From positions 64,112,866 to 64,176,865 of the forward strand of contig OZ024871.1 of assembly GCA_964017185.1 (NCBI GenBank): a DNA stretch of 64,000 nucleotides, in the 5' to 3' direction. The position numbers were made by a program, and so were the translations under genes. Positions 1-40,725 of this stretch are shown here, piece after piece; position 1 is the first letter of the stretch, and every line of letters begins with the position of its first letter. This stretch comes from Rugalucina vietnamica. Lineage: Eukaryota; Mollusca; Bivalvia; Lucinida; Lucinidae. Under the pieces are notes generated by a model. It was not told where the DNA came from. It made no database searches and saw nothing but the letters and a program-made list of their open reading frames with translations.

Positions 1-2938
1 CAATACATATTAGCTCCATTGGTGCCGTTGATGTCATGTTCACCAGCTCCGCAGCCTTTGTTGGTGGCTTCTTTCGACGGATACATCGACCGCACTCTTT
101 GATCTTCTGCTCGACGTATGTTTCCATTCCGGGCCAAAAGAAACGTCTTTTCAGTAAGGAGATGGTCCTGTCTCTTCCTTGGTGGCCTAGGTCATCGTGG
201 TATGCCTGGAAAACAATGTCGTACAGTTTACGTGGCAGCACCAGTTGATTCCAAGTTTGACAGTCAATTGTACCTCGCCGATATAGGACACCATCCTCTA
301 GATACAACCTGTCCCAATCACGTAAGAACCGCTTGTCAATATGGTGTTCTTCCATTGTTTCTGAAGATGGACGCTGACCTTCCTTGATGAAATCAACAAC
401 CTTGGAAATGAACTTGTCTGATTTCTGAGCAGCGATCCAATCCTCACATGACAAAGCTGTTGCCTTCAGTGTTTCGTCAGGAATTTCCTCATCTTCACAT
501 GTGGCTGATGGCGGTTCTTCCAAACTAAGACCTGTTGCCAAAGGAGTTTCTTCGGTAGAAACTGTAATTGCCCCTGTTATTGCTCGCAAAATTTCTGGGA
601 AGCTGCATTCCTCCTCTGTGACTGGTATTCTCGAAAGTCCATCGGCATCTGCATTTTGGGTTCCACATCTATATGTAAGGGTGAAGTTATAAGCTGATAG
701 TGCCGCTACCCATCTCTGACCGGTGGCGTCCAGTTTGGCTGATGTCAAAATGTACGTGAGCGGATTATTGTCTGTCAAAACTTCGAACTTCGACCCATAC
801 AAATAGTCGTGGAACTTCTCTGTAATTGCCCACTTCAATGCCAGGAATTCCAATTTATGAGCAGGATAATTCTTTTCTGCTGGCTTTAAACTTCTACTGG
901 CGTAGGCGACCACACGCTCTTTTCCGTCCTGGCGGTGATAGAGAACGGCCCCTAAACCTGTAGATGAGGCATCAGTGTGGACTTGAAATGGGTACTGATA
1001 GTCCGCATATGCGAGCACTGGTGGACTGGTGAGCTTCTCAATCAGAGTATCAAATGCTTCTTGTTGTTCCATTCCCCATTCAAATCCTTTCCTCTTTGAC
1101 GTCGCTGACTTGCCGTTCTTGGGGTTTGATTCACTGTTTCCAACGAGAAGATCATTCAGTGGGCGTGCGATTGATGCGTATCCTTTGATAAATCGCCTGT
1201 AATACCCCGTGAATCCTAGGAATTGTCTCACTTCCTTAACAGTTGTGGGTACTGGCCAGGATCGCACTACCTCAATCTTCTCCGGATCAGTCTGTATGCC
1301 TTCTTCCGAAACGATGTGTCCCAGGTAGGATACTTGGCCCTTGAAGAATTCACATTTTGAACCTTTTAGTTTCAGATTATGCTCATGCAGGCGCTTGAAA
1401 ACTGCTTCAAGTTTCTCCAGATGTTCGTCAAAGCCAGACGAAAAGATGATAATGTCATCGAGATAGATCAAACAATCGCGGAGGTTCATCTCGCCCATGC
1501 ATCTCTCCATCAGGCGTTGAAATGTGGCTGGAGCGTTGCATAATCCAAACGGCATGCGGTTAAATTCAAAGAATCCAAGCGTCCCGACCTGGAATGCTGT
1601 CTTGCATTTGTCAACTTCCTCTAACTCCACCTGCCAGTACCCACTTCTGAGATCAAGCTTGGAGAAGAACTTTGATCCAGCTAATAAGTGTAAGGAATCT
1701 TCCACTCGAGGTATTGCGTACGCATCAGTTATTGTCCTTCCGTTCAACTTTCTGAAGTCGACACAAAACCTGATGGAACCATCTTTCTTCCGGACTATAA
1801 CTACATTGCTTGAATAAGGACTTTCACTGTCCCTGATGGCACCGGCGCTCTTCATTTCCTCTAAATGCTCTCGAACTTCTTGAATAAGACGAGGTGGTAT
1901 GCGTCTGTAAGGTTCTTTAAACGGCTCTTCATTGTTCAGTCTGATCCTGTGCTTTACTAAGTCCGTCTGTCCAATGTCTGTCACGCCTGTTGAAAACACA
2001 TGTTTCCATTGATGAAAAAGTTCAGTTACTTTCTCCATTTGATCTTCATCGAGCTTAGTGTTCTCTAATTTGACACCCTCTGGTAAAGTTGGTTGATCTT
2101 CAGAATCTATTCTTAACTGACTTGCAATATTAGCTGTCTGTGCTGAAGAAGTTTTGTCTGATATATCAGCATTCCTTAAAACTTTCACCTGCTGTAACTC
2201 ACATAGCAATGTTTGTGGCTTTATAATGAGGGGTCTAGCAGAGATGTTAAAAATTCTAACAGGTACTCTGTGATTCCTTCCAGATGAATTCAGTGAGACT
2301 ACTCTGGGACATACGCCTATTCTGTCTGATGCCTTTTCTGACTGTTCTGTGACTGCTTCATTATACTCCATTCTCTGATCCTTTTTTAATAGGCCCGAAA
2401 TCGTTACTGTCTCGTATGGTTTCACTTCAATATCTATCTTGTTGGTTGATTTGACATTTCCGATGAAACCAGTTTGTAAACTCAAGAATGCAATTTCCCA
2501 CTGATCTGGTGCTGTTTTCCTTCTGCTTTGAATCTGGACTTCTCTTATTGCATTTGTTCCCACTATTATTGGTACTCTTAGATTGTATTCTGTAGTTGGC
2601 ACAACGAGAGCTGGCAAATACAAGGGTTCATCTATAAAGGACAATTCAATCTTCACTATGATTATCCCAAAGTATTTTAATGACTTTCCATCGGGGCCTT
2701 GAAGAGATAATCTAAAGTCTTCATGCAGCTCTGGGCGGGGATTAAGCGATCTGTAGAATTCCTCTGAAACCGTTGTTACCATAGAGCCACTGTCAATTAA
2801 TGCAGGTATCTCAACATCACACACAGTAACCATTGTTTCATTTGCATGGCCAACTACTTTGGCAAACATTTCTTGTTTGTTTTGTTTAGGGCATTGTTTG
2901 TTATTGTCTCCAGCTTGCCCTACGTTGAAGACATTCAT
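1..2938 (-). CDS. pol: Ty3/gypsy-type Pol polyprotein, cut by the window edge
   Basis: The frame is open from the ATG at 2938 to base 2 (979 codons), and the motifs I checked are all in this one frame. In order: an aspartic protease with a DSGS active site near residue 49; a reverse transcriptase with YLDD at about 492-495 and a preceding KLDLRSGYWQ block; a Ty3/gypsy-type RNase H with TDNNPLTYILTSAKLDATGQ around 722-740; and an integrase N-terminal zinc-binding module (HDDLGH followed by ECGRC) near the window start. The integrase core lies outside. The order protease-RT-RNase H-integrase marks Ty3/gypsy rather than Ty1/copia. Pol lies in the -1 frame of Gag and overlaps it. It could be made by -1 frameshifting at 2941-2947, since the pol frame is open upstream to 2989, or by re-initiation at ATGA. 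No internal stop was seen, so the element may be young. Confidence 0.93.
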   Translation of the reverse strand, partial: MNVFNVGQAGDNNKQCPKQNKQEMFAKVVGHANETMVTVCDVEIPALIDSGSMVTTVSEEFYRSLNPRPELHEDFRLSLQGPDGKSLKYFGIIIVKIELSFIDEPLYLPALVVPTTEYNLRVPIIVGTNAIREVQIQSRRKTAPDQWEIAFLSLQTGFIGNVKSTNKIDIEVKPYETVTISGLLKKDQRMEYNEAVTEQSEKASDRIGVCPRVVSLNSSGRNHRVPVRIFNISARPLIIKPQTLLCELQQVKVLRNADISDKTSSAQTANIASQLRIDSEDQPTLPEGVKLENTKLDEDQMEKVTELFHQWKHVFSTGVTDIGQTDLVKHRIRLNNEEPFKEPYRRIPPRLIQEVREHLEEMKSAGAIRDSESPYSSNVVIVRKKDGSIRFCVDFRKLNGRTITDAYAIPRVEDSLHLLAGSKFFSKLDLRSGYWQVELEEVDKCKTAFQVGTLGFFEFNRMPFGLCNAPATFQRLMERCMGEMNLRDCLIYLDDIIIFSSGFDEHLEKLEAVFKRLHEHNLKLKGSKCEFFKGQVSYLGHIVSEEGIQTDPEKIEVVRSWPVPTTVKEVRQFLGFTGYYRRFIKGYASIARPLNDLLVGNSESNPKNGKSATSKRKGFEWGMEQQEAFDTLIEKLTSPPVLAYADYQYPFQVHTDASSTGLGAVLYHRQDGKERVVAYASRSLKPAEKNYPAHKLEFLALKWAITEKFHDYLYGSKFEVLTDNNPLTYILTSAKLDATGQRWVAALSAYNFTLTYRCGTQNADADGLSRIPVTEEECSFPEILRAITGAITVSTEETPLATGLSLEEPPSATCEDEEIPDETLKATALSCEDWIAAQKSDKFISKVVDFIKEGQRPSSETMEEHHIDKRFLRDWDRLYLEDGVLYRRGTIDCQTWNQLVLPRKLYDIVFQAYHDDLGHQGRDRTISLLKRRFFWPGMETYVEQKIKECGRCIRRKKPPTKAAELVNMTSTAPMELICI

Positions 2939-2947
2939 GCGTTTAAA
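2887..2947 (-). promoter_or_regulatory. Predicted -1 programmed frameshift signal (slippery site plus pseudoknot)
   Basis: Read on the minus strand, Gag ends CCT TTA AAC GCA TGA. The heptamer T_TTA_AAC (2947-2941) is in the Gag frame and fits the X_XXY_YYZ rule. Slipping -1 leads straight into the Pol frame (CGC ATG AAT). After an 8-nt spacer (2940-2933), GTCTTCA (2932-2926) can pair with TGGAGAC (2912-2906). The loop segment TAGGGCA (2922-2916) can pair with TGCCCTA (2893-2887). A 12-nt A-rich linker (2905-2894) separates the second strand of stem 1 from that of stem 2. This is the geometry of an H-type frameshifting pseudoknot. The pairing was read by eye and no energy was computed. Confidence 0.75.
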
Positions 2948-5900
2948 GGCTCCTTCTTTTCCGTTTCTTTCTTTTCTTCTTTCTTTGTTTCAGTTTCATT
3001 AGGTTTTGGTTTATCCCATTGTGATTTCGGAAACTTCGGATATCTTGGTTGTCGATCATATCCATGCTGTTCTTGATATCTCTGTTGTCCTCTCCCCTTT
3101 TGTTGATCTTGCAAATCTGGCTTGTCTTGCAGTTGCTTTTCCAGATATTCTATTCTACTCGTAAGCTCCTTGTACTTAGGATCTTCCTCTTTATTCTGTT
3201 CACTTTCTGTTTCTACTCTTTGTTGTTGTTGTTTAATGCCAGCATTGATAGTCATCTGTTCCTCTTCTTCTCGAACTGCACGTCTCAGAAGTTCAAAATT
3301 TGAGATTGACTCAAAATGCACCCTTGTCGCATTCTTCAATCTTTCACTTCGCAGTCCTCTCCAAAAGGCATCTTTAAGTAAATCATTCTTTTCTTCTGCT
3401 TTAATCTGTCCTTTTTCTGTGGCTTTCAGCAAGATTTCTTCCAACCTCAATCCCCATGATCTTACTGATTCATCTTGCTTTTGTAAAGCAGTATAAAATT
3501 CCCTCATTATGCTTCCTCTTGTTGCTACGTTACCAAAGACTGATTGCAATTTATTCATAATTTCTTCAACCGTTGCAGCAGCACCCAGTGGCATTATCAC
3601 TCTCTTAGCCTGGTATTTTACTGACTTTCTTATTGCCTGTCCAACCTGACTTTCTGTTACTTCTTTATCCTGTCTGAGACAGTCGACCTCATACTTCCAC
3701 TCTTCAAATGATGTTTCATTCTTTGATTTTGAATCTTCTCCAGAAAACGTTGAAAGCCTTGGAGGGTCATTCCGATCTGTGACGGTAATCTGCGGTATGT
3801 AGTGTGTTTCTTTTCCTTCTGAATCCTTCACTATTTTCACTTCTTTCTTCCCAACTTCTGTATCCTTTTCAGAATCACATTCTGCACGGCCTACAGTAGC
3901 TGACGAATACTGTTTCAATTGTCTCTTTAACTCTTCAATTTCTTCCCGTACAGATCTGTCTGATATACTTTCATGCTCAACCGTTTTACTGTCTCTCAAC
4001 TTCAATTCGCTTATCTCCAGTTGCTCTTGTCTGCGTTGTAATTCTTCTTGCCTGTGACGTAATTCTTTCTCTTTTTCTACTATCATATCCTCATAAGAAT
4101 CTCTCTGAACTCCAGTCTTTTCTCTATTTATCGCCTCATTGCGAAGCCATTCTTCTTTCTTCAACAACTCAGCCTCTAATTTTCTCAGATCCTCTTCCTT
4201 CTTTTGTAGTTGCTTCTTCCTCAAATTTCTTTCAAATACATCACGCTTGCTATCAATTTTACTACTCGCTGCCATATACAGATCATCATTAATATCTGAC
4301 TCACAGTGTTCTTCTCTTCTATATTGCCGCTCTCCGTCACTCTTTTCTGTATCTCCCCTATTCCTGGTCATATATTCTGTTTCATTCTGTACACGAGGAC
4401 TTATATTATCTGGCATAAAACGTTTCACTTCTTCCAGTGCCCTTTTATAGCCTTGATAATAGTATGCCATTTGATAATCTTGGTTATCATCCACCTTCAC
4501 ACCGCACGAGCTCCAATTAGGCATGTTATCTACTTCATTATCTGACGTCACAGATCTCCTTCTGTTCCATTCCTGAGGAAATAACTCTTTAGGCTTTGTA
4601 TCTTCAACACGATTCCCTTTTCCTACAAATCCTATTTGACTTTCACTGGCATTATACATTCTTCTCGCTGATCTATCTGTTGATTCTTTCTGTTGAAATG
4701 CTGAATATGTGTCCTTCATCTGTGTTCTCGGTGTGCTTTGTAACATGCCGAGAAGAGTGAGTCTCCTATCCATATCTGCTATTTCTCTATCTAAAACTTG
4801 CGAGAATGAGCCTTCATTAACCTGATGTTTACTAACATCTAATGATAATATTCCAGCATTTCCCAGTGGTGTACACCGATTATGTTCTGAAATCTGTTTC
4901 TTCTGCACGTCTATATCCTGATCGTCCATTGTCATCGCATTTTCTAGAGGGTTTACTGCTGCTGTAGTTTCTGTGAAAAATTTTACAGACGACTTTTCTT
5001 TTTCTGTCTTTCTTCTCATTTCTTCTCGGAATTCCTCTTGATATTTCTGTTCAAGTTCTAGTAGGTACTTTTGACCCCAATTGTATGTCTCTTCAGTTTC
5101 TGGCATTACGTCTTCATCATAATATTCATGTCCTTTACTTTCAGACTGCCTCCAATGTTGTGTGCTTTCTTGTATTGTCTGTTGCTGTGGAAGCTCTTCT
5201 CCTATGTCTAGCAATTGCATCTTTCTAATATCTTCTTCAACTTGGAATGGTTGTCTCCCCATGTCAAGTTGCTTCCAAAATTCTGCTTTCGCTTGTTCTT
5301 CAGACTTTATCAAAGATTCTTTCTCTAATACGTGCTTGCGTTCTGCTAATTCTTTCTCTTTTTGTTGGTCTCTCTGTTTCTCTTCCAACTTTCTTTCCCA
5401 TTCTTTTCGTTGTTTGTCTTTCATTATTTCTAGCTGTTGTTTTCTATACATTTCATACTGTGATCGTTCAAACTGCCGTTTTGCTTCCTCTTTCGCTTCT
5501 TCTTCCCGTTTCAATTTAATCATATCATCTAGCTCTTTTTCCCATTGCTTTCTTTTCTCTTCTTTCATTTGTTCAAACTGCTTTTGTCTAAGCTCTTCTT
5601 GTCGTGCTTTCTCTGATTTTATTTTCTCTTCTTCTCGTTCATATTCCAGTTGCTTTCTCCTCCTTTCATCATACATTTCATTTTCCCACTTTTCTCTTAA
5701 TTCCTGTCTCAGTTTTTCCGCCTTCAATTCCTCTAGTCGTTCCAATTCAACATTCCGTTTCTCTGCTGCTTTCATTTCTTCATCCTGTTTCCTTTTCTTT
5801 TCCTCCATCATTTCCGTTTCCCACTGCTTTCTCAATTCTTGCTTTAGTTTCTCACTCTGTTTCTGTCTAATCTCTTCTTGGCGATCTTGTTCTGTTTTCC

Positions 5901-7170: not shown

Positions 7171-8315
7171 AAGTTCAACCGGTGTCCTTGTGTGTTCGAT
7201 TAGTGGTGATTTTATAGAAATATATTTTATATTAAATATATTTTAGTATCTAGTATTTTGGCAAACAAGTATACAAAGTATCCAACTTTATATAACAAAC
7301 ACCAGGTAAAGAATGCATTGGAGCATCACATACATTTTATCGTGCTCTGGCCAACATAATAATCAATGAAGAATGAAAATCGATCACTATGAAGTTACAA
7401 AGACAATATCAAATATGACATAAATATGATAATCAAATATACATCTTTTTACATAAATGTGAATAATAACAAACCTGTAAAATATATAGAAATATATTTT
7501 AGTATCTAGTATTTTGGCAAACAAGTATACAAAGTATCCAACTTTATATAACAAACACCAGGTAAAGAATGCATTGGAGCATCACATAACGATGAATATT
7601 GAGTTAAATTCATATCCAAGGTAACCTGATCGGTTAACGGAATAACGTTCATACTGTAAATACCCAGGGGTCTATGTATTCTCACTTAATCTTTATAAAG
7701 AGCATGATGGGCCTTCATCACATTGTGATATCAGACGAAACGGCGAGGTTGTGGCATTTGCATATGCGCCTTACACTGAAGGGTACCATGAGGGTTCGGC
7801 AACAATTGTCATTCATTTAAATTATGAAGATATCGTAGACGTCGGCAGATGTAGATCTCTGGACTACATCGACGTCTGGACAAATTTCCATGGATTTCTT
7901 CTCTATCCTGATTAGAAAAAGAATTTGACGAAAGTTGATGGCTGAGAACAGATGCACCTTTTTAATTCTAGATTCTATATCACAAGATACATAAATGTAC
8001 TATATCCAATATAAAAACACACATTGCTGACAGATTTCCAACTCTTTTAAAGCTCCTCCTTAAATTGCTCATGGAACAATTTACATATTACAGTATGGAC
8101 GCAAAAATCGTTATACAAATTAAAGGGAAACAAACCTAAAGCCAAGTGTCTACAATTAAATGTTATGTACTCCTGATGGGCAGTTGCTATTGGCAGAACA
8201 GTCAAGTCACTTGCGATTTTGTACATTGGAAAATATGTCACTTTTATTTCACCCAACAAACCGTTCTCTTACATACCACTAAGACGCAAAAGTAGACAAT
8301 GTACTCTTTTTATTT
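7171..8315. other. Upstream region of the gag-pol element; LTR not located
   Basis: A 5' LTR and primer-binding site should lie here or beyond on the minus strand, but the partner LTR is outside the window and no PBS could be recognised. The stretch contains a 99-bp direct repeat (separate entry) and an interrupted inverted repeat near 7838-7876 (GACGTC and GATGTAG with their complements). No gene is seen. Confidence 0.5.
7234..7588 (-). repeat. 99-bp direct repeat, two copies 256 bp apart
   Basis: Bases 7234-7332 recur essentially identically at 7490-7588. The copies lie just upstream of the gag start on the minus strand, so they may be duplicated leader or LTR sequence of the retrotransposon, but this cannot be shown without the other LTR. 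Confidence 0.85.
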
Positions 8316-8438: not shown

Positions 8439-9745
8439 TGATTAGTCTTTACCTATGATCAATAGCGTTTTCGAATAGCTGTTGTTGCCAGTGACAAAAA
8501 TCCGAAAAAAAATCTTTGAAAGATTCAGCCGCAGTCTCGAGAAAAAGCAAGTCAAAATTAAAGAAAACTGGTGTTAGTACCCTGGCAAAAACACAAGCGA
8601 TTTTAATTGGTCTTCATGAAAATGTAAGGTTTTATTAAGTTAGCTTTATTACTGGTAATTTTAATCCCGAACTATCAAGCGGGTTTGAAGCTGTAGTGAT
8701 TTAACAGTCCCAATGGGATTATACATGTATTTTACTTGTTCACTAAATTTTGCCTCTGGGCAAATACACGTATATATAGATCTATAAATATATTGTTTTA
8801 AACATATATCACAAATTGATGACACCCAATACAGGACCAGAATCGCCATTTCACTTATTTAATAGTAATTATCGTCTTACAGACATATTGCTTTCTGTCA
8901 GGGACGAAATATGAAATTTGTAAATCATTATATATGATCACAGCATATGCATATATACTCATCAAAAGAAGTTTTGTACCAGTTAATATTTTTCTCATTT
9001 TAAGATAATGTCTAGTATAGATATTTTTCAAATAAATTTTTAAAACTTAAAACCATCTTAAAGCCCCTATCTCACTGGAATGCGACAACTGGAGACTAGT
9101 TCGTGAATAGTTCGCGACTATTTCGCGACAAAGATTATTCGATATAAACACAACTTTCACGTTGCAGTCTCACTGAATAGATATTTATGCGACAAATTCG
9201 CGAATTTCGGTCTAATTTTGAAAATATATCACGCAACTGTCGCGCGCTGGTCGCGCGACTGTCGCACGACATTCGTGAGAGTGTCTCACGACTTTCGTTT
9301 CACATCCTCATTCGAGATACTGAAAGCAATCATTTAAAGCAAAAAAAAAAACACTAAAAATTGAATTTTTTCCACAAAAACACTATTTTTGACCAAAAAT
9401 AACGATTTTTGAGATTTTGTCTCAATTCTAAGATAAAGCTTAGTAACACATCTCTCCAATAAAATGGGTTGTTTTTCTTTCAAACACAGCATGTAGCACC
9501 CATGAATGTTTAACTGGAGGTACTGGACTGGACCCATCCAAATTCAGAATTTTTAAAAAGCTGCATATCAAAAAAGTACTCATGCAACATCTTTGACATG
9601 GAATCCGGGTCGTTTCGCCCGTGGGTCGTTTCGCCGGGTCGTTTCGCCCTGAGTCGTTTCGCCCTGGTTTTATGGGTGGGTCGTTTCGCCCTTATTAGGT
9701 GGGTCGTTTCGCCCGTGAGTTGTTTCGCCCGTGAGTTGTTTCGCC

Positions 9746-9748
<3 letters not shown>

Positions 9749-10514: not shown

Positions 10515-12110
10515 CGGTGTTTCTGGTATTTCGACAGTCAGCTTAACTAATCAAATAATTAACAGAAGTGTGATATTTGTCCAAGTCAATTGATTAATGC
10601 GATAATCCATTAATATGTTTACGCCTTCAATCACACGTAAGGTGACAAAATTCGTGTTTGTCAATTAAAGGCGATGTGTGAATGCTTTGTCTTTGGCGGT
10701 GACCGATGGCCGACATTCTTGAAGTGTTAAATGGTAAAAGAATAAAACATGACTCCGATGCATATCGTGCAACCTTAAGCACAAGAAAATAAAAAATGAC
10801 TTTCGTTCAATGCCGATTAAGGACCTAGCGTTTTTCGCTGATTTCAAGCGTAAAGTGGTCAAAACACACAGACATGTATACGATTACAGCGCCAAAAATT
10901 AGGGTGAAATAAGTCCGTGCATATTTATTGTATTTGAAAACTTTCGAATTCGTTTCATTTTACACACATTTTGGTATGAAATTTAAACAGGCTGACTGTA
11001 TTTTCTGTTTGAAATTATTTTTGCCGAATTATCCTGTATTCTAAAAGAAATAATCATAATCGCACCAATTTATAGTGAGGCGTTTTCAAAGTCCTTTAGT
11101 GTATATACCCAAAAGATAGTTATGAATGATCAGCCCAAGACGTATCATTAAGTTATAAATAACAAATAATACACCAGATCACACATTTGGGCATGGTAGG
11201 AAAATCAGGGCGAAACGACTCACCAACTAGGGGCGAAACGACTCACGGGCGAAACGACCCAGGGCGAAACGACCCAGGGCGAAACGACTCACGGGCGAAA
11301 CGAATCAGGGGCGAAACAACTCATGGGCGAAACGACCCGGGACCTTTGACATGCGATCGCTTTTAACAGAAAGAAAACAAGCGGCAGGTTTTGGTGTCAA
11401 AACATCTCATAGTGATCAAAAATTGAAATGAATTGCCATTGTACTCATTTTTTCCAATATTCATCATTTTTTAATAAAAATTGCAATTTTGTCAAAAAAA
11501 TGAACTTTTACTAAAATTGTGAGATATTTTAAATTGGTATTAGGCTTAATCATTAGCTTTGGAGCTCTTGTGTGTAAATTTGGAATTAAAAATGTGTTCT
11601 TAATGATGTGGAATTTTTTCGATTTTCCAATTTTCAGCATTTACAGAAAATGGGAATTTTCATTGTTTCCGAAAATCGTTTCCGCAATGATTTTTGGTCT
11701 TATCACACATATTATCAAACTCTTTCAGACTGTGCAAATTCAAAAAAGCTAGGTTTAAAATTGTTAGTTAAAATGTCACTTAAAATATGAAAAATCTAAA
11801 TGGTGCAAAACTTCTTTTGATGAGTATATAATAATTATATGCATAATTCATTCTGGTTGTATAATTGTCTGCGCTTGCGTTCAACTATGTTTTGAAAAAA
11901 TCGACTCATAAAAAAAAAATTTTATGTAACGATTTAGTACTGTGTAAAGGCATAGCTTAGTTTTCAGTTTTTGAAATGATGTTTCGATTCATGCATTTGA
12001 AAGCTACCATAACAAGAGTATCTTGTCGAAAAGAGTTTGCTTATGTACAGTACATGCATGTGATAATACTTTTTTTCCAGAAAAAAAATAACGACAGGTG
12101 TAATAAGAGC

Positions 12111-12772
12111 TGTCGCAGGACAGCGTAGCTCGCCTGACTTGTGCTTTGCCACTAAATTTATCAAAATCTATGACCCATGACCTTGACCTCAAGGTCGCTC
12201 AGGTGGGTTGTGATGGTACAGCATAAAATTTCAGACCAATATCCACAAACGTGCAAAGTTTCAACTTGATCCATCAACATAGAGGTACATGTATATAGAC
12301 TTCAAAAATCTTTAACCCAAAACTTTAACCAAAAATTTCTTAGGCCATGACCTTGACCTCAAGTTCACCCAGGGTGGGTCATAATGGTACAGCACAAAAC
12401 TTCGGACCAATATCTACCATCATGCAAAGTATCAACTTGATCCATCGACATGTTCAAGAGATATAGACTTCTAAAAACTTTAACCGAAAACTTTAACAAA
12501 AAAAAATCTAAGTCTGTGACCTTGACCTCAAGGTCACCCAGGGTGGGTCATGATGGTACTGCATAAAACTTCAGACCAATATCTACCAACATGCAAAGTA
12601 TCAACTTAATACATCAACGTGTTCAAGAGATATTGACTTCTAAAAACTTTAATGAAAAAGTCACTAGAGCACGAAATATAGGTCAAGGTCACTAGATCAA
12701 TGTGGGTGCAAAGTCGAGACATCAAGGAGAAGCCATATGCAAGGTTTGATGGTTGTAGGCTTTATAGTTGAT
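12111..12772 (+). mobile_element. Tandem-array element A (about 171-bp unit)
   Basis: It opens GTCGCAGGACAGCGTAGCTC and carries about four copies of a unit of about 171 bp, marked by GACCTTGACCTCAAGGTC at about 12179, 12350 and 12520. The same start and unit occur in element B at 21653, whose far end (CAGGCGAGCTA) is the inverted complement of its start (TAGCTCGCCTG). Here the far end has decayed. The central array with short inverted ends matches the architecture described for bivalve pearl/HINE elements; that assignment is an inference. Confidence 0.75.
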
Positions 12773-13205: not shown

Positions 13206-14735
13206 CAAGGCAAAGAAAAACCAGAGGACCAATGGTCCTGTAAACGCTCACCTGAGATCAGCTGCATATACCAATAAACATGTTTGAATATTATGGTATT
13301 TAACTCCAGTGCAGGGGCAGATAAGCCCTTGGGCCATTTTCTTTTTTCAGAATCTTCAATATTCTGTCCATTTGCCAATTTCCTGTTGGCTTTTTCCTTC
13401 AAATGACATTTTAACAGTTTTCCCAATTCAGATGCACAGGCAACCCATGTTGACCTTGCCATAAACTTGGTCAAGGTCATCACAGGGTCATGATTTATAT
13501 ATACATTTGAGTACTTTAGCCATCGATGCCTCACGCCAAGTTTCCTTGAAATCAGTCTATTGGTTTCAGAAAAGATGATTTTTGATGGGTTTTTACCATA
13601 TATGGGCATGGCGGCCATCTTGGTCATGTGACCTAGATTATTTATATACACATTGATTCCCCCATTCTATAGATGCTTCACTTAAAATTTGGCTTTGTTT
13701 GGCCAAGCGGTTTCAGAGGAGAAGACGTTTGAATATTATGGAAATATACATGTATATTGCCCCGGGGTGGGGGCACATGAGCCCCTGGGGTCCAATTTTT
13801 TTCAGAATCATTAATATCTAGTCCTACTGCCCATTTCCTGCAAGACTTTCACTTTAAATGACATTTTAAAAGTTTTCCCCATTCAAATGCATTGGTGACC
13901 TACGTTGACCTTCCCGTAAAATAGGTCAAGGTCATCACAGGGTCATGATTTATATACACATTGTAGTGCTTGAGCCATCGATGCTTCGTGCCAAATTTCG
14001 TTGAAATCGGTCAACCGGTTCTGGAGAAGAAGATTTTTGAACGGTTTTTACCATATATGGGCATGGCGGCCATCTTGGTCATGTGACCTGGATTTTTTAT
14101 ATACATATTTGTTACCCCTTCCTATTGATGCTTCACATAAAATTTCGCTTTGATTGGCCAAGCGGTTTCAGAGGAGAAGATGTTTGAATATTATGGAGAT
14201 ATACATGTATATTGCCCCGGGGTGGGGGCGGATGAGCCTCTGGTGCCCAATTTTTTTCAGAATCATTAATATTCAGTCCTACTGCTCATTTTCTGCAAGA
14301 TTTTTCCTTTAAATGACAATTTAACAATTTTTGCCATTCAAATGCATTCGCGACCTATGTTGACCTTGCCGTAAAATAGGTCAAGGTCATCATAGGGTCA
14401 TGATTTATATACACATTGTAGTGCTTGAGCCATTAATGCTTCATGCCAAGTTTGGTTGAAATCGGTCCAGTGGTTCCGGAGAAGAAGATTTTTGAAGGGT
14501 TTTTACCATATATGGGCATGGCGGCCATCTTGGTCATGTGACCTGGATTATTTATATACACATTGGTTCCCCCTTCCCATAGATGCTTCATGTAAAATTT
14601 TGCTTTGATTGGCCAAGCGGTTTCAGAGGAGAAGATCTTTGAAAAGTGTGGACGACGGACGGACGACGGACGGACGGACGACGGAGCATGGGTATACTAT
14701 AAGCTCACCTTGTGAGCCTGACGGCTCAGGTGAGC
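13206..14735 (+). mobile_element. Tandem-array element C (about 460-bp unit)
   Basis: It opens with the hairpin AGGACCAATGGTCCT and GCTCACCTGAG and closes with CTCAGGTGAGCTAAAA, so the ends are inverted complements. Inside, about three units of about 460 bp are marked by GGCGGCCATCTTGGTCATGT at about 13610, 14070 and 14525. A GGACGGAC tract (14650-14685) precedes the last hairpin. The same termini occur at 27336-29250 and, inverted, at 38731-40725, but with different inner units. No transposase or replicase is encoded. The 67- and 148-residue frames over it are translations of the repeat. Confidence 0.8.
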
Positions 14736-21302: not shown

Positions 21303-24300
21303 CTGAAATAGGAACCAGCATAAAGATAAAAGTAACATCCAGTACTCAGGGGAGGCTTTGTTGGTTGGAAATAGTATGGGTTACATTGTATCACCAAATA
21401 TTCATAGGGGCCCCACACTTGTTTTGATTGATTTGTGACACATATTAAGCGAAAACAGGTATACATTGTAAAAATATTGTCAATATTTTTACAATGTATA
21501 CCTGTTTTCGCTATGTGTCACAAGTCGACCAAAACACACGCCGGGCCCCTATGATTATACTGAGTCAGTAACCACTAACAAGTTTTACAGTACCACGAAA
21601 ACTTGTACCCGGTAAGTCAAGTTCTGTGATACTTTCAGATTGATATTTATTGCAAGGTCGCAGGACAGGGTAGCTCGCCTGACTTGTGCTTTGTCACTAA
21701 ATCTATTAAAATCTATGACCCATGACCTTGACCTCAAGGCCTCTCAGGGGGGCAGTGATGGTACAGCATAAAACTTCAGACTAATACATGTATCTACCAA
21801 CATGCAAAATACTAACTTGATCCATCTACATATTCAAGAGATATAGACTTATAAAAACTTTTACCAAAAACTTTAACACAAAATTTCTAAGTCTGTGACC
21901 TTGACCTATATGTCAATAAGGTGGGTCATGATGGAACCAATATCTATCAACATGCAAAGTATCAACCTGATCCATCTACATATTCAAAAAATACATATAC
22001 CTAGACTTACAAAAACTTCAATCAAAAACTTAAACACAAAATTTCTAAGTCCAAGACCTTGACCTAAAGGTCACTCAGGTGGGTTGTGATGGTATAGCAT
22101 AAAACTTCAGACCAATATCTATCAATATGCAAAGTATCAACATGATCCATCTACGCATTCAAGAGATATAGACTTACAAAAACTTTAACCAAAAACTTTA
22201 ACACAAAATTTCTAAGTCCTTGACCTTGACCTCAAGGTCACCCAGGTGGGTCATGATGGTACAGAATAAAACTTAAGACCAATATCTACCAAAATGCAAA
22301 GTATCAACTTAATCCATCCACATGTTCAAGAGATATAGACTTATAAAAACTTTAACCAAAAACTTTAACATTAAAGCAATGCTATACTAACGCCGACGCT
22401 GATGTGACTGCAATAGCTCTTTCGTACAGGCGAGCTAAAAATTAGATAAAAAAAAAAATGTTAAATTTGTCTCTATAACTTCTAAAATGAAAAACAAGTT
22501 TCAGAAGTTGAAAATTTTATTTCACTGATGAGATGTCACCATTAAGTATAACTGTATATACCAATAGTTAGAACTTTACCCAGTAGTGCCTATTCTATTT
22601 TACAATTTATATACTTCTGCATGCTTAAAACACCATATTTAGAACCAAGTGATGTAATGGCTTCTTTTAATACACAAAACCACTCTTTTGACAAATCACA
22701 TGTAATATTACTCATTGATGGGTTTCTGAAAGTATCACATATGATATGAGCCGTGATGTGAGAAAAAAGGTCTTCGGGGTTTCCAACCTGGTCTGACACA
22801 AACTACAGAAGATGGCTAGATGCTTGAAATTTCGGATTCAGAAAGAAGAGGAATTGTACTATCCTTGTAGCGAAAACAAAGGTGCTGATCTGCTTTGCAG
22901 TTACTGCGAAGCTGATCTGCATCTTTGTTTTTGCATAGGCAAAAATCCAGTTTTCTCATAACGTGGCTAATATATTTTTGGCAAACTTTCAACATCAATA
23001 GTTGGATAGTTGGGACAGTTTGAAACAATTAAAATAGAATTAGAATAAAAGCGCTGCAGGCATGCATGATACCCCGCCACACAAATTTAATTTAGCAAAA
23101 ATGTTTGTCAATAAATCCTCAAGATAAAGAGCAGAACAAAATTTTGTCATAAATGAAGGACCATAACTCTGTATATGTTGATAAAATTTACCCATCTTCA
23201 ATCCAAAACCACTACTTCCTGATTTGAACTTTTATACAAAGTTTGAAGAAAATTGGTTGATAAATGCACAAAACAGAGGCAGGGAACGAAATTTTAATGT
23301 AAATCATGGGCCATAACTCTACTTTATTTGCCCATGATTTAACGAAATTTATTCATTTTCAATCCCAAACCACTCCTTCCTGATATGAACTCCTATACAA
23401 AGTTTGAAGAAAATCGGTCAATAAAAGCTCAAGATAGAGTCCGGAAACAAAATTTTAACGTAAATCAAGGGCCATTACTCTGTACTTATTCGACAAAATT
23501 TATCCATCTTCAATCCCAAATCACTCCTTCCTGGTATGAACTCCTATACAAAGTTTGAAGAAAATCGGTCAATAAATGCTCAAGATAGAGCCCAGAAACA
23601 AAATTTTAACGTAAATCAAGGGCCATAACTCTGTACTTATTTGACGAAATTTATTCATTTTCAATCCCAAACCACTCCTTCCTCATATGAACTCCTATAC
23701 AAAGTTTGAAGAAAATCGGTCAATAAAAGCTCAAGATAGAGTCCGGAAACAAAATTTTAACGTAAATCAAGGGCCATTACTCTGTACTTATTCTACAAAA
23801 TTTATCCATCTTCAATCCCAAATCACTCCTTCCTGGTATGAACTCCTATACAAAGTTTGAAGAAAATCGGTCGATAAATGCTCAAGATAGAGCCCAGAAA
23901 CAAAATTTTAACGTAAATCAAGGGCCATAACTCTGTACTTATTTGACGAAATTTACCCATCATCAATCCCAGACCACTCCTTCTTGGTATGAACTCCTAT
24001 ACAAAGTTTGAAGAAAATCGGTCAATAAATGCTCACGATAGAGCCTGGAAACAAAATTTTAACGTAAATCAAGGGCCATAACTCTGTACTTATTTGACAA
24101 AATTTATCCATCTTCAATCCCAAATCACTCCTTCCTGGTATGAACTCTTATACAAAGTTTGAAGAAAATCGGTCAATAAATGCTCAAGATAGAGCCCGGA
24201 AACGAAATATTTACGTAAATCAAGGGCTATAACTCTGTTCCTATTTGACGAAATTTACCCATCTTCAATCCCAAACCACTCCTTCCTGATATGAACTCCT

Positions 24301-27300
24301 ATACAAAGTTTGAAGAAAATGGGTCAATAAATGCTCAAGATAGAGCCCGGAAACGAAACGCTGACGGACGGACAGACAGACAGACAGACAGACGGACGGA
24401 CGGACGGACGGACACTCGAACGCAAATTTTTTTTGGAGGGTATAACATAATACCCCGCACTTTTTAAGTGGCGGGGTATAAAAATCTAAAAAAGAATTTT
24501 ATTTTACCAGCATATGATATTCTTCATGGCCATCTAAAGGTTCACTGACTACAGCTTTAATGGAATTCATAGGAAGTTTTTCTGTTCTTTCTGAAACCAC
24601 AAAGAAATTCAATGAAATTTAGCTCTCAAAATGACACATTCTTTTTTGAAATTGAATAGAAAAATATCAGCATCCTTCATATTTATGAATATGAATGACG
24701 TGGCAGAAACATATTGACTATTGAGCTTTAAATCACTCATTAATACAGCAAAGTCACGATCTGATTTTATGCTGCATGGTTGGAAAAAGAAACCCAAACC
24801 CAGGGTTTCTCGCTTTCCATGCAAACACCCTGCCATCTGTGCTACTAAGCCACATGTCTGTCCTTTTTATTTACCCCGTTAAACATAAATTGTCTCTGAA
24901 TCTGCTTGGAACAGAGACCTTTTTGCTGCTCGCAGCCAAAGCATGGACCCACACTGCCCACCAAAATGTCAGAGGTGTGGAAAAAGAATGTAGCCAAACA
25001 GGACATCACAGTAACCATGTGTGTATTTACCAACTTAACTAATATTACTTATTAGCACAACTTTTATCATTTTCACAATCAAGTTTTTATCAAATATTTA
25101 CATTTTTTTTGTTTTGTGGGGTACTGCATACCAGTCAATCTTGTTCAGTCATGTCAGGATTTAAGCACTTCCTGTGTATTAACCAGTACTCATGGAAGTT
25201 CATGTGCCTTTTTCCCACTTCCATCAGGAAAACATGCCTATGTAATGTATACCCCCTTAAACCCCACTTTTATATAGAATAACTGGGGTTTGCAGGGATA
25301 TACCTATTTTTCTTATTTTTGCTCCAAAATATAGATTGTGGGTACTCGTAAGAACCGCCTTAAGGAGGCGGTTTTAACGTGTACCCACAATCAATGTTTT
25401 GAGCAAAATATTTTTTAAAAAAATCAAACTTTTTCCAATAAAAATTTGAATTTTTGCTGATGAACAAAATTTCTGTATATTGCATAGGCATGTTTTCGTA
25501 ATGAGTGGTATTTGAAATCTCAATCTCACAATCCAAAGTCCAATGCTCATCACTATATATGAGCTGCGACGCGAGAAAACTGGTCTTGGGAGTTTCCGAC
25601 CAGGGCCGACACAAACCGACCTGTAAAGTCATAGAAAAAGGCTAGAAGCTTAAAATTGTGGATTTAAGAAGAAGTGAAATTGTACTATCAGTGTAGCGAA
25701 AACAAAGGCGATGATCAGCTTCACAGTTACTGCGAAGCTGATCTGCGCCTTTGTTTTCGCATAGGCAAAAATCTGGTTTTCAAATGACGCGGCTCATATA
25801 TATTTTACCTTTAGTTCCTAACCATATCTGATCTAACTCCAGCTTGAATGTGAGCCTGACTTTGCCCCCTGATTTGTTGTACATTCCTGTGAGGGGTTGG
25901 GGAGGGAGGGACTGTTTTGAGTTCTTGATTCCTGGCATTGCATCATCCGGTTTGCCATATTTGTCTAATACTTTTTTATGTTGCTGAAAGGTAACAAAAA
26001 TGCTTCATTGGACTAACAATTTCAACATACAATGTTTTTAATGTGGAAAAGCAAAATTCATTTATAAAAGTGTGAATCTTTGCTTATAAAGCATTTAATA
26101 AGCATGCCTTTAAATAATGCCTTGTAGAAACTGTCAACCATCTACATCAGTGGGTCTGTAAATTTCTTGTGCAATAACAAATATGGGGAGTTCTTCTTCC
26201 TATTTAAAAATGATTATTTCTTTCATGTGGTACTGATATTTATGTCCCAACAATAATTTTGAAAGAGAAAATTCATTTTAGAATTTCTGATATCAGCAAA
26301 AAATACATACAAAACAAACATCAATACATCAATTTTACCTTTTGTTGACTAAGTGGTTCTTTTGAGGATGCAGCCTTTGCCTCTTCTTGAATCTCTTTCG
26401 CAGTTGGCGCACTAACTGACAGGACGTCGTTCATCGTTGACCCTACCACCATTATCTTGGCACCTTTCGTAACTTTCAGATCACGTAATGAGCTTTCGTT
26501 TTTGGCTAAACCTGTTGAAAGAAATCAAAATAAACTTTTTTTGACTTTTGTGTCATGAAAATGAAAACTGCCAAAGCTTGGTTTAAACATTAGTTGGCAT
26601 TATGTGGTCAAATGTGATGAAGGTAACAGGAGATCCCGGGGAAAGCCATCAAACCTGGATGGGTGACCACTACCATGCCACATGCCCTGACGCAGATTTG
26701 AACCCGGACTACATAGGTGACAGACTAGTGTGTTGCCTTATCCACTACACTATCCAGGCCCCCTTGGTTGATATGCTTAATACTAAGTTAGAAGAATTTT
26801 ATATGTAAATGTTTCTTATAATAATCTTCTTAAAAGAAAAGCTCTGGCAACCTTTAATATTATATTTCTTCAGATATAACAAAAATATGAGCAGCTACAC
26901 GACAAACCAGGTCTTCTGACCCAGTCTGACACAAACTGGCCTGTAAAGTCACAGAAAAAGGCTAAGATCTGGAAAATATGGATCTGCACAGCTTATAGAA
27001 CTGTAAAAATCTGCTTTTATTTTGATGCAGCTCATAAAAATGAAACATTGAATAGCGATTGTTGCTTGTTTGTTTTTATCATCTGGAGGACTTTATAGAA
27101 TTAATACATTACATTTAGTTGAAAATACATAGCATCTTAGTAACAACTACCCAACAACTTAATAAATAAGAAAGAACTCAACGACTGGTGTCCCTTTTAT
27201 GGGACATAGGCAAATAGGCAAACAGAATAGCCTCAGATGTGATGCCAGCAGAACGCAGCGTCCCATCTGGGGCTATTCTGTTTGCTCAGAGAATTTTCAT

Positions 27301-30300
27301 CAAAAACTTGATTAAAATAATTAAAAAATCACTCCTAACACCCCTAACCAGAGGACCAATGGCCCTGTAAACGCTCACCTGAGACCTGAGATATATACCA
27401 ATAAACTTGTTTGACTAGAATGGTAATATACATGTATATAACCCCAGGGCAGGGTCAGTACAAACTCTGGAGTCAATTTCTTTTTTAAATCATAAAGATT
27501 CAGTCGTTTTGCCAATTACTACAAGTTTTGCCCTTCAAATGACATTGTAACAATTTTCCACATTCAAATGTGTGGGCAAACCTAAGTTGACCTTGCCGTA
27601 AAAAGGTCAAGGTCATCCCAGGGTCATGATTTATACAAACTTTGTTGATGCTTCATGCCAAGTTTCAAAATCACAGGCCTTCTGGTTCTGGAGAAGATTT
27701 TTAAAGGTTTTTGCTATTTATAGCCATGGTGGCCATCTTGGTCATGTGACCTTGACCAGTTATACAAACTTTCATTCACTCTTCCTAAGAATGCTCCACA
27801 TAAAGTTTGGCTTTGATTGGCCAAGCGGTTTCAGAGAAGAAGATCTTTCAATATCACTGTAATATACATGTATATTGCCCCGGGGTGGGGGCAGACAGAC
27901 CCCTGGGGTCCAAATTTTTTCAGAATCATCAATCTTAAGTCCATTTGCCCATTTCCTGCAAGTTTTTCCCTACAAATGACATTTTAACACTTTTCCCCAT
28001 TCAAATGCATGAGCGGCCTATGTTGACCTTGCCGTAAAATAGGTCAAGGTCATCCCAGGGTCATGATTTATATAGACTTTGTAGAGCTCCAGTCACTGAT
28101 GCTTCACACCAAGTTTCAAAATCATTGGCCTTCTGGTTCTGGAGAAGACGATTTTTAAAGGTTTTTTTCTATTTATAGCCATGGCAGCCATCTTGGTCAT
28201 GTGACCTTGACCAATTAGATAAACTTTCTTTCCCCCTTCCCAAGGATCCTCCATAAATTATGAAGTTTGGCTTTGATTGGCCAAGCGGTTTCAGGGGAGA
28301 AGAAATACATGTATATAGCCCCTGGGCAGGGGCAGACAACCCCCAAGGGGCTAAAATTTCCCATTAACATTAATCTTCTGTCCATTTGCTGTAAGTTTTA
28401 CCCATTAAATAGCATTTTACCATTTTTTCCCATTCAAATGCATTGGCGACCTAAGTTGACCTTGCCGTTAAATAGGTCAAGGTCATCCTAGGGTCATGAT
28501 TTATATAAACTATGATGGGCCCACGTCCCCGATGCTACATACCAAGTTTCGTGGAAATCGGCCCACTGGTTCTGGAGAAGAAGATTTTTAAAGGTTTTTG
28601 CTATTTATAGCCATGGCGGCCATCTTGGTCATGTGACCTTGACCATTTATATAAAATTTCTTTCCCCCTTCCCAAGGATGCTCCATATCAAGTTTAGCTT
28701 TGATTGGCCAAGCGGTTTCAGGGGAGAAGATGTTTCATTATTATGGAAATATACATGTATATAGCCCCGGGGCAGGGGCAGACAACCCCCCAGGGGCTAA
28801 AATTTTCCATTAACATTAATCTTCTGTCCATTTGCCTATTCCCAGTAAGTTTTACCCATTAAATAGCATTTTACCATTTTTTCCCATTCAAATGCATTGG
28901 CGACCTAAGTTGACCTTGCCGTTAAATAGGTCAAGGTCATCCTAGGGTCATGATTTATATAAACTATGATGGGCCCACATCCCCGATGCTACATACCAAG
29001 TTTCGTGGAAATTGGCTCACTGGTTCTGGAAGAGACGATTTTTAAAGTTTTTTGCTATTTATAGCCATGGCGGCCATCCTGGTCATGTGACCTGGACCAT
29101 TTATATAAACTTTCGTTCGCCCTTCCTAAGGATGCTCCACATGAAGTTTAACTTTGATTGGCCAAGCGGTTTCAGAGGAGAAGATCTTTGAAATTGTGAA
29201 CGACGGACGGACGACGGACGGAAGGACGGCCTTCGGCTCAGGTGAGCTAAAAATGACTCATCCAAATGATAATGATGGGAAAGTACATCCTTCAAATATG
29301 GGTTAAGTTTTCACTGACCTTTGTACATTATTTTCTGCATTGCAGAAGGCACACCTGAAGAATAGAGATTTATAAAATTGAGCCGCCTCGTGGGAAAACC
29401 AACAATGTGGTTTCTGAACAGGTCGGACACAAACCGGGCTGTACAGTCACAGAAGCAGGCTAGAAGCCTGAAATTTCGGATTAAGAAAGTAGAGGCATTG
29501 TACTATCCTATTTTCGCTATTGTACTAGCGAAAACAAAGGCGCTGATCAGCTTCGCAGTTACTACGAAGCTGATGTGCACCTTTTTTTTCGCATATTCAA
29601 GTTGTTTTCTCATGCGGCGGCTCAAATGACTTCAATGTGTTACAGCAGTGTTCATCATGACAATAAAACTGACAATGTTACAAAATATAAAACGGACCAT
29701 AATATGTAAGCATTCTTGCAAAAACCTTTGAAATTCTTATTTCTAAATGAATGAAAACTTATCTGAGCAAAGAAAATGGCAATATTGTCTTGAAGACTGC
29801 TAAGTTCTTGATAATAGTATGCTTGCATGAAAATTCATCAATAACATGCACATTGATCAACTTTACTTATGTCCAAAATAGTTTAAGCATGCTTATTATC
29901 CATTTTAAGTTACTTTCATGTTGTCAGACTTTCATTGGCATCACTGTCGCAATGAATAACATTCAAATACTTTGCAATATCCAAGCGAGAAGCTGAGCAC
30001 AGACCACGACCATCTTCATGTTAAAGCAGTACTCACATCAGCAAACATTGTCTGTCTAATGTATACCCCAATTGAACCCCACTTTTATATAGCAAAACTG
30101 GGGTATGCAGGTGTTGACCGATTTTTCTTTTTTTTTTGGCTCCAAACATAGATTGTGGGTACTTGTTAGAACCGCCTTGCCGATGGGGTTCTAACGTGTA
30201 CCAACAATCTATGTTTTGAGCAAATATAAGAAAAATATTAAAAAAAAATTCTACAGAAAATTTTCAATTTTTACAACTTAGAAACCAATGTATAATATTA

Positions 30301-38730: not shown

Positions 38731-40725
38731 TTAGCTCACCTGAGCCGAAGGCTCACAGGTGAGCTTATAGGATAGGCAGGCATCCGTCGTCCGTCGTCGT
38801 CCGTCCGTCCGTCCGTCGTCCGTCGTCCGTCCACAATTTCAAAGAAGAATATTTCTGAAGCTAGTAGGCCGATCTTGATCAAATTTAATGTGAACCATAA
38901 TTGGGTTGGGGGATTGATGGCATTAGGTTTTGGAGCAGATTGTATCAAAATTGTGGTTTCCATGGCAACAAATAGGTCCCATACACTCACAATGGGAAAA
39001 ACTAAAAAATCTTCTTCTCTGAAACCACTAGGCCCACAGCTTTGATATTTGGTATGTAGCAATGGCTAATGGTCCTCTACATAAATTGTGCCATTCGTGC
39101 CCCTGGGGTCAAATTTGGCCACGCCCCGGGGGGTCGATAGTCTCCATAGACTTACTATGGGAAAAAAATAAAAAATCTTCTTCTCTGAAACCACAGGGCC
39201 CACAGCTTTGATATTTGGTATGTGGCAATGGCTAATGGTCCTCTACATAAATTGTGCCAGCCATGCCCCTGGGGTCAAATTTGGCCACGCCCCTGGGGTC
39301 GATAGTTTCCATAGACTTACAATTGGAAAAACTAAAAAAATCTTCTTCTCTGAAACCACTAGGCCCACAGCTTTGATATTTGGTATGTAGCAATGGCTAA
39401 TGGTCTTCTACATAAATTGTGCCATTCATGCCCCTGGGGGTCAAAGGCCACGCCCCGGGGGTTGATAGTCTCCATAGACTTACTATGGGAAAAAAATCTT
39501 CTTCTCTAAAACCACAGGGCCCACAGCTTTGATATTTTGTGCGTGGCAATGGCTAATGGTCCTCTACATAAATTGTGCCAATCATGCCCCTGGGGTCAAA
39601 TTTGGCCACGCCCCGGGGGTTGATAGTCTCCATAGACCTACAATAAGAAAAAAAAACTAAAAAAATCTTCTTCTCTGAAACCACTAGGCCAACAGCTTTG
39701 ATATTTGGTATGTAGCAATGGCTAATGGTCCTCTACATAAATTGTGCCATTCATGCCCCTGGGGTCAAATTTGGCCAGGCCCCAGGGGTTGATAGTCTCC
39801 ATAGACTTACTATGGGAAAAAAAATCAAAAATCTTCTTCTCTGAAACCACAGGGCCCACAGCTTTGATATTTTGTATGTGGCAATGGCTAATGGTCATCT
39901 ACATAAATTGTGCCAATCATGTCCCCGGGGTCAAATTTGGCCACGCCCCGGGGGTCGATAGTCTCCATAGACCTACAATAGGAAAAACTAAAAAAATCTT
40001 CTTCTCTGAAACCACTAGGCCCACAGCTTTGATATTTGGTATGTAGCAATGGCTAATGGCCTCTACATAAATTGTGCCATTCATGCCCCTGGGGTCAAAT
40101 TTGGCCACGCCCCGGGGGTTGATAGTCTCCATAGACTTACTATGGGAAAAAAATTAAAAAATCTTCTTCTCTGAAACCACTAGGCCCACAGCTTTGATAT
40201 TTGGTATGTAGCAATGGCTAATGGTCTTCTACATAAATTGTGCCATTCATGCCCCTGGGGTCAAATTTGGCCAGGCCCCGGAGGTTGATAGTCTCAATAG
40301 ACTTGCTATGGGAAAAAAATTCAAAAATCTTCTTCTCTGAAACCACAGGGCACACAGCTTTGATATTTTGTATGTGGCAATGGCTAATGGTCCTCTACAT
40401 AAATTGTGACAGCCATGCCCCTGGGGGCAAATTTGGCCACGCCCCGGGGGTAGATAGTCTCCATAGACTTACAATGGGAAAAACTAAGAAAAATCTTTTT
40501 CTCTGAAACCAAAAGACCCAGAGCTTCTATATTTTGTATGTAGCAATGTTTGGTAGTCCCCATTAATTAATTGTGCCAGTCATGCCCCTGGGTCAAATTT
40601 GGCCATGCCCGGGGGTCAATAGTGTCCATGCATAGACTTTCATTGGTCGATTCTCAATTAATTTAAATCTCATGAGCTTACAATGTGATAATCTCTCAGG
40701 TGAGCTACAGGACCAATGGTCCTCT
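38731..40725 (-). mobile_element. Tandem-array element E (about 170-bp unit)
   Basis: Inverted relative to elements at 13206 and 27336: it starts TTAGCTCACCTGAGCCGAAG with a GTCCGTCCGTCC tract and ends CTCAGGTGAGCTACAGGACC. About ten units are marked by CCCACAGCTTTGATATTTGG and GGCCACGCCCC. The frames over it (60-108 residues) are translations of the unit, not genes. Confidence 0.85.

Follow-up and report, generated by a model that had tools for sequence, protein, structure and literature searches.

A slippery heptamer and a covarying H-type pseudoknot form a probable -1 frameshift signal at the Gag-Pol junction of Ty3/gypsy-type retrotransposons in a lucinid bivalve

We analyzed a stretch of 64,000 nucleotides (nt) from the genome of the bivalve Rugalucina vietnamica (the window; contig OZ024871.1, positions 64,112,866 to 64,176,865 of the forward strand). 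On its minus strand lies a long terminal repeat (LTR) retrotransposon of the Ty3/gypsy type, and the junction between its gag and pol frames very probably carries a programmed -1 frameshift signal for the production of Gag-Pol. Pol is in the -1 frame relative to Gag, a slippery heptamer is read in the Gag frame, and an H-type pseudoknot follows it. Both stems covary, and the examined relatives in the same genome retain the arrangement. From this we infer the slippage itself, its rate and the resulting Gag:Pol ratio.

The junction of the window copy consists of the following elements, S1 and S2 being the two stems of the pseudoknot.

2941..2947 (2947-2941), minus strand: slippery heptamer T_TTA_AAC, in the Gag frame
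2935..2937, minus strand: Gag stop TGA, 3 nt past the heptamer, after the single sense codon GCA
2936..2938, minus strand: Pol-frame ATG, overlapping the Gag stop as ATGA
2926..2933, minus strand: 5' arm of S1, 8 nt
2916..2922, minus strand: 5' arm of S2, 7 nt
2905..2912, minus strand: 3' arm of S1, 8 nt
2894..2904, minus strand: A-rich loop 3, 11 nt, its length varying among relatives
2887..2893, minus strand: 3' arm of S2, 7 nt

The Gag-frame codons here are CCT TTA AAC GCA TGA. An earlier model reading of the sequence (the original prediction) had placed T_TTA_AAC in the Gag frame, and it is indeed read there, at 2947-2941. The same reading put the heptamer four codons from the end of Gag, which holds only if the preceding CCT is counted; one sense codon, GCA, separates it from TGA. 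That reading also gave the frame of Pol as exactly -1 and as open as far back as 2989. Both statements are correct: the frame is open for 51 nt upstream of the Pol ATG, and the heptamer lies in frame 0 within the overlap of Gag and Pol. The two interleaved stems are also present as described, but S1 gains one T-A pair. The H-type layout is accordingly a spacer of 7 nt (not 8), S1 of 8 base pairs (bp), a loop of 3 nt, S2 of 7 bp, and further loops of 3 nt and 11 nt (the latter a linker given earlier as 12). This places the knot, which covariation supports, within 5-9 nt downstream of the heptamer.

A knot of this kind is rare. Of the strong heptamers, one among the 608 of the minus strand is followed by an H-type knot of 7+7 bp, and likewise one among the 610 of the plus strand. 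Dinucleotide shuffling of the 80 nt that follow the heptamer gave such a knot once in 50,000 trials; random 80-mers of the minus strand contained one in 66 of 50,000 cases. Duplex energies in the window copy were -10.4 kcal/mol for S1 and -11.5 for S2, compared with -10.2 for the best nested fold (loop costs left out). The nested minimum-energy fold of 68 nt was unremarkable (z -1.37; 16 of 200 shuffles folded equally well) and did not show S1. Because the nested folding tool cannot form pseudoknots, we do not hold its result against the knot. Rfam gave no match in 2700-3100 at E up to 1, and none in the whole window at gathering thresholds. A covariance model run on the window scored the known site, which was in its training set, at 58.6 bits; the next hits scored 12.4 and 10.1.

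We searched the host genome (1.09 Gb, 47 contigs) for Pol relatives with the first 329 Pol residues. This protein search yielded 122 scored matches among 692 candidates, 35-100% identical, and 98 of the 122 were examined at the junction. By a rule calling for a heptamer-like site with the S2 core behind it, the cassette was present in 94 of the 98; the heptamer list was written, and the rule corrected, after the junctions had been inspected. The rule found no cassette in L027, L086 and L092, whose 5' part is missing or replaced, or in L115. A second search, which required open Gag and open -1 Pol frames, found a knot in 88 of the 98 (none in L027, L038, L044, L080, L086, L092, L106, L111, L113 and L115). 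An uninterrupted knot, meaning S1 of at least 6 bp and S2 of at least 5 bp, was seen in 90 of the 94 cassettes versus 7 of 272 control stretches inside gag. L044 has an open Pol frame of 1362 amino acids (aa) and one base more in loop 3 than L035. Viral contigs searched with the same 329 residues held no relative.

T_TTA_AAC is used in the clade, as predicted, but is only one of several heptamers there. The 94 cassettes carry GTTAAAC (39), TTTAAAC (38), GGGAAAC (8), AAAAAAC (3) or GGAAAAC (2), with AGGAAAC, GAAAAAC, GGATTTT and GTTAAGC once each. G_GGA_AAC, which we take to be the heptamer of the mammalian gene PNMA3 as well, is found in L054-L060 and L107; GGATTTT is found in L062. The cassettes form 30 clusters at an identity of 88% over 80 nt, each with one representative. 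A Pol tree of the 20 representatives with enough Pol sequence, built without the cassette residues, calls for a minimum of 6 heptamer changes. In 29 of the 30 representatives the distance from the heptamer to the Gag stop is 0 or 3 nt. Loss of the heptamer, or uncompensated disruption of the stems, in related copies would have spoken against the original prediction. We found the heptamer site at the same place and both stems kept through compensatory changes.

Covariation was measured over 13 pairs in an alignment of the 30 representatives, against 500 shuffles, which ignore relatedness. Pairs were formed in 92.3% of pair cells, and 11 of the 13 pairs had changed on both sides. The covariation score was 0.490 versus 0.254 in shuffles, and for four of five covariation measures none of the 500 shuffles reached the observed value. 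Shifting the pair partners lowered pairing to 33-57%. RNAalifold predicted S1 unaided. Three further pairs above a bulged base can lengthen S1: columns 22-35, 23-34 and 24-33, which pair in 19, 22 and 24 of the 30 rows. The share of paired cells is then 90.4%, and double changes occur in 12 of 15 pairs. L109 and L113 have a continuous S1 duplex with no bulge. Covariation in related copies was the check proposed for the original prediction, and both stems pass it.

Might Pol instead arise from ribosomes that terminate and then re-initiate at the ATGA overlap, the heptamer being incidental? The original prediction had named this as a competing route, and the overlap is indeed present in the window copy and in its sister, L010 (the one found by a DNA search of the host genome with the 211-nt junction, 99% identical over it). 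It is not conserved, however: a Pol-frame ATG stands at the Gag stop in 2 of the 94 cassettes, both of the window family, and 8 of the 94 have one no more than 60 nt from the heptamer. What the relatives keep is the position of the heptamer and the knot. Since the ATG at the Gag stop is private to the window family, the conserved route would be frameshifting and not re-initiation, which we consider very unlikely. Coincidence of a chance heptamer and a chance pseudoknot is a still weaker candidate, with a probability close to nil. The pattern of heptamer, 8 nt and S1 5' arm is common in the genome, with 21 matches versus 35 for a reversed control. Eight of the 21 became loci, with a knot in two (L006 and L007) and none in six; L011-L013 are also cassettes and L010 is the sister copy, giving at least 6 cassettes in total. 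We conclude that this pattern by itself is not informative. A chance origin of the knot is nevertheless at odds with its single occurrence among the 50,000 shuffles, and with the excess of uninterrupted knots in the cassettes of relatives over the control stretches.

The conserved nucleotides might also reflect constraint on the N-terminal Pol peptide, V-S-V-x-G-Q-T-G-D, rather than RNA structure. This peptide is recognizable in many of the 30 representatives. Pairs 17-41 and 20-38, however, link second codon positions of Pol, and their changes replace both residues together. At 17-41 the change is from Val..Asp (20 of 30 rows) to Ala..Gly (5), with 4 rows unpaired; at 20-38 it is from Ser..Gly (11 rows) to Phe..Glu (5), with other paired combinations in 11 and no pairing in 3. 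The double changes in 11 of 13 pairs, reached in none of the 500 shuffles, likewise argue against a protein-level reading, and S2 complementarity stays while the length of loop 3 varies. As the paired changes swap two amino acids jointly, protein constraint does not explain the pairing, and we hold it to be a highly improbable account of the conserved nucleotides.

Several observations weigh against a frameshift signal built on a conserved heptamer and knot. L115, the last of the scored relatives, has no cassette in its 241 nt examined. L080, L104, L108 and L111 lack an uninterrupted knot, and S1 of L111 has mismatches. The strict X_XXY_YYZ form is not matched at the P site by G_UUA_AAC, G_GAU_UUU, G_GAA_AAC, A_GGA_AAC or G_AAA_AAC. 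L038 combines an open Pol frame of 1371 aa with a changed heptamer, G_TTA_AGC, and in L066 and L095 the Gag stop comes 27 nt on. The number of further pair types is within the range of shuffles (24 versus a mean of 21.9, with 66 of 500 as high; for the extended S1, 144 of 500). Unpaired cells within S1 number 8 of 30 at pair 15-43, 4 at 17-41, 3 at 20-38 and 12 at 22-36; part of them reflect a shift of register or a bulge. Finally, the alignment rows were cut at the S2 complement, so the columns of the S2 3' arm lean towards structure. An alignment-free test answers this bias: the S2 complement was found in the downstream segment of 28 of 30 representatives, whereas 500 shuffles gave 2.6 on average and never more than 7.

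The frameshift mechanism is of an already known kind. Most ribosomes would pass the heptamer and terminate at the Gag stop one codon on. The pseudoknot, 7-8 nt downstream, would hold some of them at T_TTA_AAC, where the P- and A-site tRNAs could re-pair on TTT_AAA; the slipped ribosomes would continue in the Pol frame and produce Gag-Pol. Slippage would set the Gag:Pol ratio. For the site of pea enation mosaic virus, a stop just behind the heptamer is reported to be important (PMC5009743). The nearby Gag stop may have a role here.

The capsid region of Gag links the element to the PNMA family.

3382..3747, minus strand: Gag capsid region, Pfam PF14893 (PNMA), E 2e-13, 50.5 bits, cut-off 25

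This match was obtained with a 244-aa Gag fragment; the full-length Gag of 1411 aa, scanned at E 0.001, gave none. Compared by sequence with solved structures, the capsid matched PNMA2/Ma2 (8uyo, E 2.9e-4; 8rb3, E 0.0096) and MOAP1 (7lgc, E 0.12). All ten other Gags taken from different clusters matched PF14893 (E 3.3e-15 to 3.5e-10). Judged by its predicted capsid, which exceeds the curated PF14893 cut-off, Gag is of PNMA type. The PNMA-type N-terminal RNA-binding domain was sought in the first 157 aa of the listed Gag open reading frame (ORF), with no Pfam match; in the other families, the reading covered some 500 aa before the shift site. Gly-Arg-rich stretches precede the shift site in the C-terminal parts of Gag of L023, L026, L037, L041, L045 and L066. 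No CCHC knuckle was seen by eye in the C-terminal 150 residues there.

PNMA3 is described as frameshifting by -1 at about 20%, with a classical heptamer and an H-type knot, and the peptide reached is said there to resemble no known protein (PMC5009743). The functional relevance of the PNMA3/5 shift was called unclear in a 2024 study (PMC11011659). From its search of vertebrates, the same study reports reptile, amphibian and fish metaviruses that carry the RNA-binding domain of PNMA type. PNMA genes have been tied to a zebrafish Gypsy12_DR-like Gag (PMC3406341). PNMA3 (Ma3) and PNMA5 resemble the element here in that a classical heptamer and H-type pseudoknot stand behind a PNMA-type capsid protein, with the shift into the -1 frame (PMC5009743, PMC11011659), the knots being likened by description. 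Unlike PNMA3/5, which are without Pol, the element in the window continues into a protease-reverse transcriptase-integrase frame. Tentatively, and as a possibility rather than an expectation, we suggest that the mammalian PNMA3 and PNMA5 signals are relics of a Gag-Pol cassette of PNMA-type metaviruses that long predates mammals. In the bivalve genome this cassette would still stand in its original place, with a Gag of PNMA type before it and a complete Pol after it; the knot would be its conserved core, and the P-site half of the heptamer would have been replaced repeatedly, G_GGA_AAC being one of the results. Among the entries listed in literature searches on PNMA combined with frameshifting, or with retrotransposons of molluscs or bivalves, no title or opening of an abstract describes the cassette, which does not prove that it is absent from the literature.

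Related signals are known elsewhere. A 2003 survey, as relayed in PMC5009743, placed pol in the -1 frame in 28 of 51 animal elements, many with heptamers. Those animal LTR retrotransposons share with the present family a pol frame -1 of gag and a classical heptamer near the end of gag (PMC5009743). Compared with that survey, as far as its account goes, the stimulator is resolved here: one H-type knot covaries over 30 clusters in one genome, and the heptamer turns over. PEG10, itself derived from Ty3/gypsy, has G_GGA_AAC and a pseudoknot between Gag-like and Pol-like frames but belongs to the sushi-ichi group, not to PNMA, and has a spacer of 5 nt (PMC2800197). Nidoviruses use UUUAAAC and H-type knots, and GUUAAAC of equine arteritis virus is the heptamer in 39 of the 94 cassettes; they differ in being RNA viruses and in their S1 of 10-14 bp in five of six table rows, with 5 bp in the sixth (PMC3835772). 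Pea enation mosaic virus, a plant virus, shares G_GAU_UUU with L062, and a stop codon follows closely (PMC5009743); this likeness is one of heptamer and stop.

The remaining features of the element are as follows.

7170-2935, minus strand: Gag ORF, 1411 aa, counted from the first ATG in the ORF list
2..2938, minus strand: Pol ORF, -1 frame relative to Gag, running off the window
2786..2794, minus strand: Asp-Ser-Gly of the aspartic protease, Pol residues 49-51, from the translation
1310..1795, minus strand: reverse transcriptase domain, PF00078, E 5e-35, Pol residues 382-543
Pol residues 621-750, minus strand: RNase H, from the domain scan
68..235, minus strand: integrase zinc-binding domain, PF17921, E 2e-17, Pol residues 902-957
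7228..7651, ends approximate, minus strand: 5' LTR
about C3:64110744-64111168, outside the window: 3' LTR

Pol contains protease, reverse transcriptase, RNase H and the start of integrase. The protease is assigned by its Asp-Ser-Gly motif and a weak Asp_protease_2 match (E 0.0052; 17.9 bits, under the cut-off of 24.3), and with it the domain order is that of Ty3/gypsy. By this predicted order and the flanking LTRs, the element is an LTR retrotransposon of Ty3/gypsy type, in agreement with its original label. The LTRs are identical at 423 of 424 aligned bases, with one 1-nt gap. They are nearly identical, which suggests a young insertion. Each LTR contains an exact direct repeat of 99 bp, found at 7234-7332 and 7490-7588 (256 bp apart) in the 5' LTR and also in the 3' LTR outside the window. 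At 1411 aa, this Gag is long for a Gag. Its N-terminal part is long, repetitive and, judged by eye, coiled-coil-like; the capsid domain lies near the C-terminus. Between 5487 and 6742 on the minus strand, Gag has a charged, coiled-coil-like tandem repeat of 144 bp (48 residues), with 4.3 copies by TRF and further, more diverged copies from the repeat finder. Elsewhere in the window, arrays of a 16-bp unit (GGGTCGTTTCGCCCGT) at 9605-9746 and 11231-11338 form an inverted pair about 1.5 kb apart. Several further long tandem arrays, their units about 150-500 bp in size, lie at 12163-12652, 13342-14643, 23107-24358, 27692-29189 and 38979-40629.

What these data add to a textbook mechanism is a set of 94 natural variants, in 30 clusters, of one frameshift knot within a single genome. 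Covariation across this set supports the structure, and the variants show which of its parts evolve. The cassette may also offer a plausible source for the frameshift of mammalian PNMA3 and PNMA5.

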